Shown piece after piece: positions 2,466-40,109 of a stretch of DNA of 59,546 nt. The stretch is from assembly GCA_016875395.1 (NCBI GenBank), contig VGRF01000029.1:1-59546 (forward strand), in the 5' to 3' direction. Made by a program: the position numbers and the translations under genes. The stretch comes from Deltaproteobacteria bacterium. GTDB taxonomy: Bacteria; Myxococcota_A; UBA9160; UBA6930. Below the pieces are notes generated by a model that was given only the letters and a program-made list of their open reading frames with translations, ran no database searches and was not told where the DNA came from. How positions within the stretch are numbered: position 1 is the stretch's first letter; every line of letters begins with the position of its first letter.

Positions 2466-2708
2466 ATGGCTGTCGTGATCGTGCCGAACGCATGCCGCGG
2501 GCTCACGGGGAGTGAGCGCGTGACGCAAGCTGCCGTGAACGTGGCCGGGTTGTTACGGGCGCTCGACGCCCGTTACCCGGGCTTCGCGGAGGCGCTCGGC
2601 CCGCGCTTCGCCGTCTCGATCGACGGCGTCATCCACGGCAATGCCGACTACGAGCGGATCGAAGACGACGCGGAGGTCGCGTTCTTGCCGCCGATCGCGG
2701 GCGGCTGA
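2466..2708 (+). CDS. MoaD/ThiS-family sulfur carrier protein
   Basis: This 80-aa protein ends in AGG, with the hydrophobic and acidic run VAFLPPIAGG that is typical of MoaD/ThiS ubiquitin-fold sulfur carriers. The C-terminal Gly-Gly is adenylated and thiocarboxylated by an E1-like enzyme. It starts 10 bp after the large subunit and is followed 43 bp later by the FAD subunit, so it belongs to the operon. The context suggests it supplies sulfur for molybdopterin dithiolene synthesis, or for the Mo=S ligand, of the neighbouring enzyme. No MoaE or E1 gene is in the window. A role in thiamine or tungsten-cofactor sulfur transfer cannot be excluded. Confidence 0.85.
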   Translation: MAVVIVPNACRGLTGSERVTQAAVNVAGLLRALDARYPGFAEALGPRFAVSIDGVIHGNADYERIEDDAEVAFLPPIAGG

Positions 2709-2751
2709 GCCGGAAAACTCGATCCAGCAGTCACGGAATCAGGAGACCCCC

Positions 2752-3621
2752 ATGCAGAAGTCTTATGAAGCGCCGCGCTCGGTGGACGAGGCGGTGGCCG
2801 CGCTCGCGAAGCACGGCGCCGCCGCGCGCGTGCTCGCCGGCGGCACCGACCTGCTCGTGCAGCTGCGGAGCGGCGCAAAGAAGCCCGCGGTCCTGGTGGA
2901 CGTGAAGCGCATCGCCGACCTCACCGCGATCTCGCTCGACGCGAAGGGCGCGACGATCGGCGCCGCGGTGTGCGGCGACGAGCTTTCGCACCGAAAGGAC
3001 CTGATCGCGCTGTGGCCCGGCTTGTTCGAGTCCGCCGCGCTGATCGGCTCGAAGCAAGTGCAGGGCCGCGCGTCGATCGGCGGCAACCTGTGCAACTCCT
3101 CACCCGCGGCGGACACGACGCCGGCGCTGATCGCGAACGACGTGCGCTGCATCATCGCGGGCCCGCGCGGTCGCCGCGAAGTCGCGGCGGCCGAGTTCAA
3201 CACGGGCCCGGGCAAGAACGTGCTCGCGGCCGACGAGCTGCTGGTCGCGCTGTTCGTGCCGCGCCCTGCAGCGCGCACCTCCGACGCGTACCTGCGCCTC
3301 ATCCCGCGCACCGAGATGGACATCGCGGTGGTGGGCGCGGGCGTGAGGCTCACCCTCGACGCGAGCGGCGTGTGCACCGCCGCGCGCGTCGCGCTCGGCG
3401 CGGTCGGGCCAACGGCCTTCCTCGTGCCGGAGGCCGGGGCTGCGCTGGTCGGCAAGAAGCTCGACGACGCCTCGCTCGCCGCCGCCGCTGCTGCCGCGAG
3501 CGCCGCGGCGAAGCCGATCGACGACAAGCGCGGCACGATCGCGTACCGCAAGCACGTCGCGGGCGTGCTCACCAAGCGCGCGGCGCGCATCGCCGCCGAC
3601 CGCGCCGCCGCCCGCCAATAA
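2752..3621 (+). CDS. Molybdenum hydroxylase FAD-binding (medium) subunit
   Basis: This is a 289-aa FAD-binding subunit of the CoxM/CutM/XdhB type, which passes electrons between the 2Fe-2S subunit and an external acceptor. Supporting motifs are AGGTDLLVQLR near residue 27 (pyrophosphate loop), GxxxxQGRASIGGNLCNSSPAAD in the middle (the second FAD loop), and a CO-dehydrogenase flavoprotein C-terminal domain ending KRAARIA. The length is normal. AGGAG at 2741-2745 lies 6 bases before the ATG. The gene ends in TAA within one of the TAACAA motifs discussed in the findings. Confidence 0.93.
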   Translation: MQKSYEAPRSVDEAVAALAKHGAAARVLAGGTDLLVQLRSGAKKPAVLVDVKRIADLTAISLDAKGATIGAAVCGDELSHRKDLIALWPGLFESAALIGSKQVQGRASIGGNLCNSSPAADTTPALIANDVRCIIAGPRGRREVAAAEFNTGPGKNVLAADELLVALFVPRPAARTSDAYLRLIPRTEMDIAVVGAGVRLTLDASGVCTAARVALGAVGPTAFLVPEAGAALVGKKLDDASLAAAAAAASAAAKPIDDKRGTIAYRKHVAGVLTKRAARIAADRAAARQ

Positions 3622-8633: not shown

Positions 8634-9700
8634 TCACTCGCTGGCGAGGCGTCGCAAGACAGCCATGCATCTCGTGATTAAGGCGTCTGACCCCCTGAAG
8701 TCCTGAAACTCGTCGAGCCGCATGCCGACAGCGGGGCCAGCGAGGCCAAGGGTTCCCGCGTAGTTCTTTACAACGCCGCACGCGAACTTCTTCGATGAAG
8801 CGCCGAACTTGATGGACCGCCCGTTCGTGCCTTGGACGAGGATTGAGCTTCCCCGTCTAACGACCCGCGCACCTGACGCCTCGCAGGCGGTCAGGAAGTC
8901 TTTGACTGTCATCTCACTGACCGACGGGTCGTGGCTCGTCGTCCTCTCGCGCCACCAACTCGAAATTGACTCGACCACCTCATCAATCGGCCTCGCTCGG
9001 GTTTCGTCGGGGAACGTTCCGGCGGCTACCTGTGTGACGAACAAAAAATCTCGTCGTCAGAGACGTCTGAACGAAGGTGCCAACCGTTCCGGTCGAGAAA
9101 GGCCAGAGTGCCCACGAGTGCAGTGCGCTTGTTCCCGTTGTGAAATGGATGGTTCTTCACGAGCGAGTGAAAGAGGGCAGCTGCTTTTTGTGGAACGGTC
9201 CGGTACTTCTCGTGCTCACCAATCGAAGTCCGCGGCCGAAGCAACGCCGAAGCGAGAAGGTTCTTGTCGCGTGGCCCTGAAGGGGTGATCGGATCGCTCT
9301 CTCTGGCGAAGAACTCCACGAGTGCGAAATGGATGGCCAAGACTTCGCTCTCTGTGAGGAACTCGACAGACTCAGCAGAAGGCCGTGGAGGCGCGCCGCG
9401 GCGCTCAGGTTCTGAGGGGTGCGCGAGGTTGACCGCAACAGCCGTCCGAGTGTGGGGAGCGGCCGATCGTTCAACCAGGTCGACTCGTTGCGGGTTGAGC
9501 AGGGCAGTTGCCGGCGACGGAGTCGACTGACTGGGCGGCGCGAGTAGGAGCCGAATCGCAGCGTCTAGTCTGAACCGAGAAATCTGATCATTGATCGAGA
9601 CAACCGGAACTCCAGCAGCCCGAAGCCGTATCAACGCCTCATCGGGGGTCATCTGAGCGCGGACCGCAAGATGCCGTACTCGTCGTTTGCGCATAGGCAT
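8634..9700 (-). pseudogene. Fic/Doc-family protein with C-terminal HicA-like extension, frameshifted
   Basis: Read from 9700, residues about 1-60 are a short unknown domain (MTPDEALIRLRAAGVPVV), then a low-complexity linker. Then comes a death-on-curing domain with the motif HPFHNGNKRTA at 184-194 (catalytic His and the anion-hole/NKR loop). The frame ends at DDEIFCSSHR around 9029. Restoring one T in the six-T run near 9045-9050 joins DDEIF to LFVTQVAAGTFP in the next frame, the expected end of a Doc fold. That frame continues to 8634 through VKDFLTACEASGARVVRRG, a stretch that resembles the small HicA RNA-binding fold. The repaired length is about 355 aa. This could be a real loss of function, a slippage site or a sequencing indel. 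The region is less GC-rich than its neighbours, and no antitoxin gene is adjacent. Confidence 0.75.
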
Positions 9701-26867: not shown

Positions 26868-27199
26868 CGCGACGCGCTCTGCGCTGCGCTCGCGAGCGCC
26901 GTCGTCGCGTGCGACGCGCCCGTCGAGGACCCCGGGCTGCATTGGCCGTTCGCAGGCGGCAGTGCTTACCAGGATCGCGACTGCGATCGCGTGCGACGCC
27001 GAGGGCGTGCCGCACTCCGTCGTCAGTTCGGGCCTCGCGCAGTTCGCCGCCGGCGGCCGGCGACCTCGAGCAGCTCTGGGTCGTCGCCATCGAGTTCCGC
27101 GTCCCAGATCGAGCCGACTTCGCGTCACGCGGTCTGCCTAACATTTTCCTTGCTGCGCAGACCGACCACGGCTCACACTGCGCCGCAGGAGGACTCCGC
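26868..27199. other. 332-bp intergenic stretch with no supportable gene
   Basis: No frame here has a start, a ribosome site and protein-like composition together. One plus-strand frame near 26880-26960 reads like a lipoprotein signal followed by DPGLHWPFAGGSAYQD, but it has no clear start and is interrupted. It could be a decayed fragment. Bases 27187-27193 (AGGAGGA) form the ribosome site of the next gene. Confidence 0.4.
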
Positions 27200-27722
27200 A
27201 TGCTGCGCTCGCTGTTCGCGTTCTCGCTCGCCGCGCTCCTCGCGAGCTCCACGCTCGCCAACACGCTCACGCAGAACGTGTCGTGGACGATCGACCGCTC
27301 GGGCACGACTGCGAAGTACCGCGTCACCGCCTACGGCGACTCGATCTACGCCGGTTACTACGGATCGCTCTCGCGCGCCGCGAAGCGGGCCGGCCCGCAC
27401 GTCGACGGCGAGTACCTCTCGCAGCTCTGGAACTCCGACATCCAGGTCGTGCGCCGCGCGAAGTCGGGCGCCGTCGCGAGCGACATCTACAACAACAAGA
27501 TCGTCGCCGAGCGCTCCTACATGCAGACGACGGACACGCGCGTCGTCACGTTCGAGATGTGCGGCAACGACGGCCTGCAGGCGCGCAGCTCGTTCGCCGG
27601 CCAGAGCGGCACCTGCAACTACGCCCCGCTGAACACCGCGCTCGCGAACTGCACGACTTATCAGGACCTCGCGATGGCGGCGATCAACACTTACGCCCAC
27701 GCGAACACACGCCTCAAGGTCC
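27200..27722 (+). pseudogene. SGNH/GDSL hydrolase-like secreted protein, 3'-truncated
   Basis: A well-placed AGGAGGA and ATG start an exported protein with signal peptide MLRSLFAFSLAALLASSTLA. The mature part has the block I motif YGDSIYAGYYGS (catalytic Ser in GDS), the block II glycine region SGAVASDI and a block III-like EMCGNDGLQA (Asn). After NTYAHANTRLKV the sequence loses the family pattern, and the C-terminal D-x-x-H block is absent. The continuing frame merges with the start of an unrelated coding remnant at about 27723. The truncated product lacks the catalytic His. Confidence 0.75.
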
Positions 27723-28013
27723 GCGCGCACTGCACTCGACGAAGCACTCGCGGCGTGGACCGTGGAGGACGCAGTCGCGGAGTACGCCGCAGTGTTCGAG
27801 CGCGCTTACTCCGACGAGGCGCAGATGACGGCGCTGCTCGAACTGTTGCGTAGTGAGGACGGGCGCAAGCTCGAGCGAACGCTTCGAGACGCGATGTTTC
27901 GGATGGCCGAAGCGCAGGCGCGCCGGCGCGACATGAGTATTCAGCGAAAGCTCGATCGACTGGCGCGTCAGCTCGCGCAGCGCGTGCTCGAGTACCAGAA
28001 GACGGGGAGATGA
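27723..28013 (+). pseudogene. C-terminal remnant resembling DUF2059 proteins
   Basis: In the frame that begins ALDEALAAWTVEDAVAEY the sequence is strongly protein-like to the TGA at 28013: a helical, charged segment FERAYSDEAQMTALLELL, SEDGRKLERTLRDAMF and a coiled-coil-like C-terminus. The pattern (a tyrosine-rich helix, then L..LL.SEDGRKL) resembles the DUF2059 fold. No start codon with a ribosome site precedes it except a GTG at 27762. It joins directly to the truncated SGNH gene in a different frame. Confidence 0.55.
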
Positions 28014-28913: not shown

Positions 28914-29549
28914 ATGGCGGAGCGTGCGTCAGAGCGAGATGCGGACGGTGTCGTGGTCACGCCGAGCGGGCGCGCGTGGCCGAAGCGGGCGTGGCTCGCG
29001 TGTGCCGGCGCGATCTGCGCGGGTGTGATCGCGGTCGTCGCGATTCCGCGCGGCGACGAAACGCAAAGTGCGGCGCCCGAGCGAGCGCCTGCGAACGGCG
29101 ATCGCGCCGGCGCCGTGTCGCTGAGAAGCTCAGCGAGGAGCGACAGCGGCGCCGCGCCTGCCGCGGTGAACGCGGGCTCCGCCGGACCCGCAGCCACAGC
29201 GCCGTCTCCCCAACAACTCGCGGCGGAGTCCGCTGTGCAGCAAGGCCTCGCGCCGAGCGGCATCGGCCTCTTTCCGCCGCCGGGCACCGATCCGGTGAAG
29301 ATCGGGATCGTCGTGCCGGACGACTTCCCGCTGCCCGAGGGCTACCTGCGCCACTACCAAGTCACCGACGACGGCCAGCCGATGCCCGCGATCCTGATGT
29401 TTCACCCCGACTACGAGCTGCTCGATGCGCGCGGTCAGCCCGTGCCGCTTCCCGAGAATCGCGTCGTGCCCGCCGAGCTTGCGCCGCCCGGCCTCGCGAT
29501 CGAGATGCTCGTGCCGCCGCCTCCTCGCGTCGAAGAGGGCGCGCCCTGA
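28914..29549 (+). CDS. Membrane-anchored hypothetical protein
   Basis: This is a 211-aa protein with one TM helix (residues about 25-45, WLACAGAICAGVIAVVAIP) and an Ala/Ser/Pro-rich linker. It has a small soluble domain (about 110-200) reading DPVKIGIVVPDDFPLPEGYL, HYQVTDDGQPMPAILMFHP. The C-terminus is proline-rich (LVPPPPRVEEGAP). The stop overlaps the probable start of the Lnt-like gene by 4 bases (CTGA). The function is unknown; coupling suggests an envelope role. Confidence 0.68.
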   Translation: MAERASERDADGVVVTPSGRAWPKRAWLACAGAICAGVIAVVAIPRGDETQSAAPERAPANGDRAGAVSLRSSARSDSGAAPAAVNAGSAGPAATAPSPQQLAAESAVQQGLAPSGIGLFPPPGTDPVKIGIVVPDDFPLPEGYLRHYQVTDDGQPMPAILMFHPDYELLDARGQPVPLPENRVVPAELAPPGLAIEMLVPPPPRVEEGAP

Positions 29550-31119
29550 CGCGCGCACTGCTCGCGCTCGCTGCCACGCTCGCGAGCTGCGCCGCGCTCG
29601 CGCTGTGCGCAGAGCTGCCCGCGTTCGGGCCTGCGCTGCTGTTCGTCGCGCTCGTGCCGTGGCTCGCGATGCTGGAGCGCGCGCACAGCTCGTCAGGCGC
29701 GCTCGGCCTCGCGCTCGCCTTCAGCGTGGCGTTCACAGGGCTCGTGCTCGGCTGGTTCGCAGCGGCGATAGCCGAGTACACGAGCGCACCGGCATGGCTC
29801 GGCTGGTGCGCGCTGCTCGTGCTCGCGCCGCTGCTGCAGCCGCAGACGTTCGTGTTCGTCGTGGTGCGCTCGTGGCTGCGCACGCGCGGCGCGGGCTCCG
29901 CGTTCGTGGCGCTCGCCAGCGCGAGCGCGTGGATCTTCACGGAGCACGCGCTGCCGAAGCTGTTGGGCGACTCGCTCGGGCTCGGCTGCACCCGTCTGCG
30001 GCGCTGCGCCAAGGCGCGGACCTCGCGGGTGTGCCCGGGCTCACGCTCGTCGTGCTGCTCGTGAACGAGTGCGCGCTCGCGGCACTCGCGTCATTCCGCG
30101 CGCGCCGGCGGCATGCGTGGCGCGCGCTCGCGCTCGGCACCGCGCTCGTCGCGACGCTCGCAGCCCACGGAGCGTGGCGCGGTCTCTCGCTGAAGGGCGC
30201 CGAGGCGAGCGCACCGCGCGTTCACGCGCTGCTCGTGCAGGCGAACTTCGCGCGCTACGGCGAGCTCGCGCGCGAGCTCGGCGAATTCGAGACGGTGGCG
30301 CTCGTGCTGGAGACGCACTTCGCGCTCAGCGCGGAGGCGCTCGCGCGCACACCGGCCGATCTCGTCGTGTGGCCGGAGACGGTGTACCCGACCACGTTCG
30401 GCTCGCCGAAGTCCGCGGACGGCGCCGCCTTCGATCGCGCGATCGCAGCGTTCGCGGCGCAGAGCGGGGTGCCGCTCGTGTTCGGCAGCCACGACGCGGA
30501 CGCCGGCGGCGAGTACAACGCCGCGATCTTCCTCGAAGCGAGCGGCGCGGGGCGCGTGAGCTTCGACGCGTACCGCAAGGCCGCGCCGTTTCCGCTCACC
30601 GAGCGCGTTCCGGATTGGCTCGACTCGCCGTGGCTGCGCGAGGCGCTGCCTTGGCTCGGTGCCTGGCGCGCAGGCGAGGGTGCGCGCGTGATCGACCTCT
30701 CGCTGTCGGATGGCCGCACGCTCCGCGCTGGCCCGCTGATCTGTTACGACGCGCTCGATCCGAGCCTCGCGCGGACGCTCGCGCGCGACGGCGCGGATCT
30801 CTTCGTCACGCTCAGCAACGACTCGTGGTTCTCGCACGCGGGCGGCCCGCGCCTGCACCTGCTCGTCGCCGCTTTCCGCTCGATCGAGACGGGACGCGCG
30901 CAGCTGCGCGCCACGAACACAGGTTTCAGCGCGCTGATCTCCCCGCGCGGCGCGATCGAGCAGCGCCTCGCCGTGAACGAGCGCGGCGTGCTCGCGGTGG
31001 AAGCACCGTTGTTAGGCGGGTACGCCACTCCGTACTCGCGCATCGGCGACGCACTTCCGCGCGCGGCGGGCGTGCTCGCGATCGCGGCGTGCGCGTGGGC
31101 GGCGCGGAGGAAGCGCTGA
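29546..31119 (+). pseudogene. lnt: Apolipoprotein N-acyltransferase (Lnt)-like, with a -1 frameshift
   Basis: The first frame (29546 to about 29985) holds the membrane half: helices from LTRALLALAATLASC through WIFTEHALPKLLGDSLGLG. One base is missing near 29985-29990, where GGCTGCAC stands for an expected GGCCTGCAC. The second frame resumes LHPSAALRQGADLAGVPG and continues to 31119. It contains the nitrilase-type domain with VWPETVYP (catalytic Glu), YRKAAPFPLTE (Lys) and ICYDALDP (Cys). Together these make an Lnt of about 525 aa, which adds the third acyl chain to lipoproteins. No ATG precedes the first frame; a CTG overlapping the upstream stop is the best start. Whether the indel is real is uncertain. 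Confidence 0.78.
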
Positions 31120-39510: not shown

Positions 39511-39584
39511 GAGGAGGTTCGCGGCGGGAGTCGCTAAGAACTGCAAATCGCCACGAGGGCGACAACACGCAGAGTGGTCGCCAA

Positions 39585-40109
39585 ATGAAAAATCACCGAC
39601 CGAAAGATCAGCGACTGATCTATGGGGATGTTGTTCCAATCTTCCGTTGGGCCGGGAGCAAGCGGAAAAACCTCGACACGCTCGCATCGTTCTGGAGCAA
39701 CCGTTTCGATCGGTACCTCGAGCCCTTCGTCGGCTCCGCGTGCCTCTTCCTCCGAATCAAGCCCGGAGCTGCGATACTAGGAGACCTCAACCCGTGGCTA
39801 ATTGAGACCTATCGAACGATTCGCCACCAGCCCTTGGAAGTCGCCGAGGCTCTCTACGAAATCCCGCGCGACTCCGCGACCTACTACCGCGTGCGCAAGA
39901 CCCCGACGCGACAGGGTACGGCAGTCCACCGAGCCGCGCGGCTCGTATATCTGAATAGGAACTGTTTCAACGGAATTTTCCGCACGAATCTGAAGGGCGA
40001 GTTCAACGTCCCGTTCGGAACAAAGCAAGGTCAGTATCCGCGGCGTTGTGACTTTGAGAACGCGGCGAATCTGTTGAAGAGCGCGAAGTTCCCACGACGA
40101 TTCTCGTAG
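39585..40109 (+). pseudogene. dam: DNA adenine methylase (Dam/DpnII type), 3'-truncated
   Basis: This gives 174 residues of a D12-class N6-adenine methyltransferase, normally about 270-300. The FRWAGSKRK motif I (SAM binding), RYLEPFVGSACLFL, AILGDLNPWLIETY and the target-recognition portion LVYLNRNCFNGIFR are present. The sequence ends after AANLLKSAKF, before the catalytic DPPY motif (motif IV). The tail and the stop are produced by joining to a peroxiredoxin remnant. It is less GC-rich than surrounding genes, suggesting acquired DNA. It cannot methylate. Confidence 0.9.

Follow-up and report, generated by a model that had tools for sequence, protein, structure and literature searches.

The question raised by this locus is whether two overlapping reading frames that join within a run of six T, the first containing most of a Doc-type Fic domain and the second a C-terminal segment proposed to resemble the HicA toxins, are the pieces of a single gene and, if so, what kind of protein this gene encodes and why its frame is broken. 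The locus lies in contig VGRF01000029.1 of a deltaproteobacterium (assembly GCA_016875395.1), and the whole stretch of 59,546 nucleotides that was analysed is referred to here as the window. The features are as follows:

8634..9700, minus strand: the whole broken gene, a long Doc with a C-terminal HicA-fold domain (from the frames, Pfam and the family profile)
9026..9700, minus strand: ORF A, the N-terminal extension and most of the Doc domain (224 aa, start ATG at 9700)
9365..9700, minus strand: N-terminal extension of 112 residues, with a weak resemblance to IF2_N that is under the cut-off
8940..9364, minus strand: Doc/Fic domain spanning both frames, motif HPFHNGNKR (Pfam Fic, TIGR01550)
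9043..9048, minus strand: run of six T in which the two frames meet (A6 on the plus strand)
8739..8912, minus strand: predicted HicA-fold domain, alpha-beta-beta-beta-alpha, with serine replacing the catalytic histidine of HicA (predicted structure, fold comparison and profile-profile alignment)
8637..8738, minus strand: helical tail with a leucine invariant in the alignments (predicted with lower confidence, pLDDT 58-75)

The original prediction, made from the letters alone, was right about the coordinates, the minus strand, both frames and the T run. ORF A reads up to DDEIF, continues for five more residues and stops, while the second frame, overlapping the first, is open from 9047 (FLFVTQV...) to a stop at 8634 and holds the last part of the Doc domain followed by the C-terminal domain. 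The T run is the sole run of at least six in the gene and one of six such runs in the window. The Fic domain was recognized by Pfam (PF02661, E 2.7e-14) and the Doc model TIGR01550 matched with E 4.4e-12 and 46.2 bits (cut-off 38.65). The C-terminal part (C-part) gave no Pfam family at E up to 10 and no NCBIfam model either. For the N-terminal extension the IF2_N score was 17.1 bits, under the cut-off of 25.3, and this identity was not used; apart from it, the extension had no convincing match in its own genome. From codon 23 to codon 121 of ORF A there is no in-frame ATG, GTG or TTG, so that a whole Doc domain requires the N-terminal extension. The gene is poorer in G+C than the window as a whole (60.4% versus 69.9%), and it is passed over as non-coding by a codon model that had been trained on 19 stretches of host genes. 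A dehydratase-like gene, presumably threonine dehydratase-like, ends 27 nt upstream on the same strand. A search for flanking repeats revealed no conspicuous pair, and neither a promoter nor a terminator pattern could be found for the gene.

Evidence that the two pieces make up one gene comes from their relatives, among which only profiles were able to reach: tblastn of the second piece alone gave no match in plasmids and phages, BLASTP of the second piece found nothing in the Salmonella protein described below, and no relative turned up when viral contigs were scanned with ORF A as a single protein. On the family profile the two pieces abut (positions 4-110 and 110-254), the profile used for this end-to-end fit having included the window's second piece. 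When the profile was built without the window sequence it still matched the second piece with 39.8 bits over its whole length, and a C-part profile without the window sequence gave 24.7 bits for the window C-part alone, versus 3.7 for the best of 200 shuffles. The relatives considered were the best 80 of 233 loci from named genomes plus 24 from viral contigs, and the distance from the Fic motif to the stop was mainly either about 58-72 residues (short Docs) or about 167-208 (long Docs), with some in between. Besides the window, 51 loci matched the long-Doc profile through its C-terminal half in a six-frame reading; these are not independent (one contig contributed both L010 and L130, and several of the viral rows are almost the same), and the list holds only loci with a scoring C-part, so that a broken and very divergent member could escape it. 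None of the 51 was split at the window's site; L007 and L012 are the two with a split, in each case elsewhere. A relative from the same phylum (G320) reads through the break site, with 50% identity over the Doc domain and the C-part, and plasmids of Salmonella and Klebsiella encode proteins of 244 and 245 residues with the same layout. Intermediate loci such as L079, L085, L089, L136 and L137, in which 83-110 residues follow the motif, fall between our limits for short and long Docs; no C-part in another frame was found among the rows listed for such loci, and they may be truncated members.

The intact members are therefore single proteins of ~240-300 aa made of a Doc-type Fic domain, a HicA-fold domain and a helical tail, aligned here in author-selected sets of long members (36 rows in alignment A3 and 34 rows in each of A4 and A5). 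Their Fic motif is HxFx(N/D)(G/A)NKR, with H, F, N, K and R nearly invariant in 34 rows. In the PHROGs collection, phrog_18015 (244 positions, function unknown) was matched by 35 of 36 aligned rows, with a best E of 5e-175, and is this long-Doc family. The proposals that an N-terminal segment, a Doc domain and a C-terminal domain belong to one protein, and that a one-base difference of frame at the six T splits it, were thus borne out, the relatives keeping both domains in one frame and the pieces fitting end to end; homologues do not keep just one of the two domains, since full-length relatives with both were found. We are highly confident in this architecture, i.e., a Doc domain followed by a HicA-fold domain that lacks the HicA catalytic histidine, and a helical tail.

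The resemblance of the C-part to HicA became apparent at the level of predicted structure. The AlphaFold2 model of an intact inovirus relative (L121) had a mean pLDDT of 92.9; its first 142 residues superimposed on P1 Doc (3dd7) with Z 15.5 and 1.9 A over 121 residues, and its residues ~146-222 matched 1whz (Z 7.8), 6hpb (7.4), 5yrz (7.0), 6g26 (6.8) and 4p78 (6.3). Three of these five chains are titled HicA, and the other two, 1whz and 5yrz, we take to be HicA-like. When the window C-part was modeled by itself (mean pLDDT 78.9, with about 89-95 for residues 11-60), it showed the order alpha-beta-beta-beta-alpha, and its best solved match was E. coli HicA 6hpb, with Z 8.8 and 1.6 A over 56 of 57 residues. 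Its top five matches were the same five chains, the next four at Z 7.6 to 6.6, followed by an unrelated fold at 5.3. Profile-profile comparison of the C-part with 14 HicA sequences gave an in-register alignment with a probability of 89.7 and E 1.9e-6, the controls reaching at most 1.6 for 100 column-shuffled HicA alignments and 0.3 for the reversed alignment; the HicA sequences were drawn from this genome and from others of its order, 14 of 19 matches being aligned and six of the 14 having been picked by their GSH motif. Other results speak against the assignment: Foldseek E-values for HicA were weak (0.04-0.3), a profile search of the sequences of solved structures found no HicA at E up to 10, and the Pfam HicA family PF07927 was not among the 25 families listed for 36 family rows. 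In a viral structure library there were two unnamed matches at E 0.001 or better, and the HicA-like rows were weak.

The catalytic histidine is needed for the RNase activity of HicA (PMC7180214). At the aligned catalytic column none of the 34 family rows had a histidine, nor did any column of the family contain more than 4 histidines, while both histidines were kept in 14 of 14 aligned HicA rows. One HicA match left out of the alignment (L183) has an R at the place of the catalytic histidine. The C-part therefore appears, from these models and alignments, to be a HicA fold without the known HicA chemistry, that is, no HicA RNase by the known criteria. Of the original suggestion of a HicA-like C-terminal domain, the fold stood, on structure prediction and fold comparison, while a match to PF07927 and the catalytic histidine did not. 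That the protein might be a double toxin, with the C-part as an active RNase of the HicA type, would agree with the fold, but the missing histidines make this quite unlikely. No HicB was noticed among the ORFs adjoining the window gene, as judged from the list of ORFs.

Two explanations of the broken frame fare best, and we consider them about equally likely, each somewhat short of an even chance. According to the first, the break is an assembly or sequencing error at a homopolymer, and the gene is intact in the organism and works like the other members. The break sits at the only run of at least six in the gene, both pieces stay open apart from it, and there is a second frame break on the same contig. 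The whole window was examined for assembly errors with the codon model and ten translated stretches, and at 29540-31116 on the plus strand a copy of lnt was found to be split near 29987-29998, with LNT_N in one frame and CN_hydrolase in another. In the 13 other genomes of the family, lnt is best matched by open frames of 436-798 codons; the own genome, however, has two further lnt-like matches, and the break in lnt may therefore be real. Real breaks can also occur in the long-Doc family, since three Vibrio phage records share one common break in their long Doc gene, which speaks for some of the losses in the family being genuine. Two further genes of the window had matches ending early. At 39522-40106 (plus strand) a D12-class adenine methyltransferase gene with 57.5% G+C matches its family up to position 157 of 253, beyond which it continues into the G+C-rich end of an apparent other gene, and at 27053-28004 (plus strand) the match of a GDSL hydrolase-like gene, under the Pfam cut-off, ends about half way, with another frame of the same strand from ~27730.

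According to the second, the locus is a young pseudogene, a toxin gene brought in by a mobile element and then lost through slippage at the six T. The foreign composition speaks for it, as does the distribution, the second piece being present in one of 97 kin genomes, its own, a set that includes no other genome of its genus. In addition, three members of the window's clade of five (support 100/99) are disrupted, each in a different way: the window copy, G320 and L042, which close to the end of its contig has its front exchanged for what is presumably the end of a transposase. On the other hand, five is a small count for a clade, and a single lesion with no further stop fits an error equally well. 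Homologues of the dehydratase in the same family were tried as a reference for the empty site, but at ~40% identity they were unusable.

A phase-variable switch working through slippage of the T run would also place the break in a homopolymer, as found here. However, the run of six T was absent from the break site in all three close relatives examined, and six T is short for such a switch, which also counts against this reading, so that we give it little probability. The original prediction had also allowed for a programmed slip, but a programmed -1 frameshift, although the frames do join in the T run, is the least probable of all the explanations, because the split is not common to the relatives, the three close ones examined have no T6 at the site, and nothing unusual was seen in the downstream RNA structure (z +0.80). 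Programmed recoding very probably does not explain the break.

As to where such genes are found, several long Docs are located in filamentous phages and prophages, in a satellite-like element and in lambdoid prophages, and the family is phage-linked. In the filamentous phage that carries the inovirus member L121, a Zot gene (5.1e-55) is followed by a small ORF and then, after 37 nt, by the long Doc; L122 has Zot and a secretin matching M13 protein IV nearby, and the record of L007 gives a filamentous-phage class. L131 is accompanied by an integrase and a Psu-like gene, and L045 by an S24 repressor and an O-like replication gene; L043 follows a peptidase gene, with no phage gene. The scan assigned no family to several neighbors of the long Docs. 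The enterobacterial version was found at full length in five of 5426 complete E. coli genomes. In E. coli PSJ-16 (L189, 8001-10504), the one genome examined for its context, the long Doc has hipBA on one side and decayed genes of a filamentous prophage on the other; a secretin gene and a Zot gene marked as incomplete are its neighbors. Within the filamentous phage contig of L122, a cREC_REC gene (cyclic-phosphate-processing receiver domain, E 5.9e-28) occupies 2603-2905, directly upstream of the long Doc, and in the filamentous Vibrio phage of L007 the long Doc gene (2507-3239) is annotated as two ORFs, a split that recurs identically in three phage records. Superinfection exclusion has been described for two of ten inovirus proteins tested in an inovirus survey (PMC6813254), the main text of which has zero mentions of Doc and of Fic, its supplementary tables lying outside this count.

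The long and the short Docs also differ in what precedes them. An ORF of 45-130 codons ending at the Doc start (counted on the upstream side only) was found for 48 of 50 short Docs, mostly from Paenibacillus and therefore not independent, versus five of 44 long Docs, the intermediate loci being omitted from this count. The five ORFs upstream of long Docs were unlike one another, as judged by eye. In the window the gene directly upstream is the dehydratase-like one and not a small antitoxin ORF. In six cases (L045, L124, L126, L127, L128 and L135) a second, shorter Doc-like ORF (HPFFNANKR, about 160-178 codons) stands directly before the long Doc, at a spacing of 12-18 nt in the three cases measured, and in L076 two long Docs are in tandem.

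We favor as the best overall explanation, including its proposed function, that the locus is a horizontally acquired and broken copy of the phage-linked long-Doc family, with a probability of roughly 0.5. The window copy as assembled would be inactive. In the motif of the window (HPFHNGNKR), as in the family, a lysine takes the place of the Fic glycine, and its near invariance points to a phosphate transfer of the Doc type. P1 Doc phosphorylates EF-Tu (PMC7180214); by analogy, the Doc domain would be a kinase blocking translation through phosphorylation of EF-Tu. Since there is mostly no upstream partner gene, the control must have another source, for which the attached domain presents itself as the obvious candidate. 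The C-terminal part might thus act in place of a separate antitoxin, in cis, with the HicA-fold domain as a putative sensor of RNA or of a phage signal and the tail helix as a brake, and the protein could be a one-gene factor of abortive infection or superinfection exclusion. This function, an EF-Tu kinase under cis control by its C-part, is put forward tentatively, by analogy.

The fold comparisons contain some hints on the place of the brake. NmFic is a class III Fic protein, and proteins of the NmFic type have their inhibitory helix in the C-terminal end region covered by the fold alignment. The Fic chains of NmFic, H. pylori, E. faecalis and Mycoplasma aligned to the L121 model reach residue 238-239, and for 3se5 (the NmFic mutant described as delta8) and 3sn9 the alignment stops at 143-146. 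This hints that, in the model, the tail helix with its invariant leucine may occupy the position that the inhibitory helix has in those proteins. The inhibitory motif of the class III Fic proteins was not seen in the family, by eye.

Several known systems are related to this one in part. The Doc of phage P1, the toxin of the type II Phd-Doc toxin-antitoxin pair, shares the Fic fold, the motif with the lysine and the location in a phage; however, it has about 125 aa and a separate antitoxin, Phd, whereas the family described here has an attached HicA-fold domain and mostly no antitoxin-like ORF upstream. The class III Fic proteins share the Fic core and a C-terminal end that aligns up to residue 239 of the L121 model, but they are AMPylators with another motif and have the inhibitory motif that is not visible here. 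With the HicA toxins (PF07927) the family has in common the alpha-beta-beta-beta-alpha fold and the in-register profile match, and it differs in the absence of the catalytic histidine and of a Pfam match, in that no HicB was noticed beside the window gene, and in the fusion behind a Doc domain. CapRel is a fused toxin the C-terminal domain of which is both antitoxin and phage sensor (PMC10865869). The logic proposed here, toxin and control in one chain, is alike, although the toxin domain differs and the likeness is one of analogy. The window copy departs from phrog_18015, to which no function is given in PHROGs, in its chromosomal location, its additional N-terminal part and its broken frame. 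The PADLOC assignments (PDC-S23 and others) were rejected, as the matches were confined to the Fic part of longer models. The main text of the HicA survey (PMC10865869) has zero mentions of Doc and of Fic, and a Doc-fused HicA fold is none of the 14 contexts that the survey gives there. No described Doc-HicA fusion was found in the literature searched, which does not prove its absence; the combination of a Doc domain with a HicA fold devoid of the catalytic histidine, mostly without an antitoxin-like ORF upstream, was not found described in that literature.

The window copy itself is just a damaged example, but the family to which it belongs joins in one protein two toxin folds that are normally separate. 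It presents a form of Doc that mostly has no adjoining antitoxin gene and a HicA fold that lost its catalytic residue and kept its shape. A still wider reading, which we regard as speculative and rather doubtful, is that this is a widespread one-gene system carried by phages, in which the HicA fold has been turned from an RNase into a sensor and brake, with the tail helix as antitoxin, and by which filamentous phages, satellites and lambdoid prophages would halt translation under attack by a rival phage. If the C-part is indeed a brake in cis, the silencing and the switching-on of a solitary Doc would become directly testable, and a phage family of unknown function would gain a mechanism.
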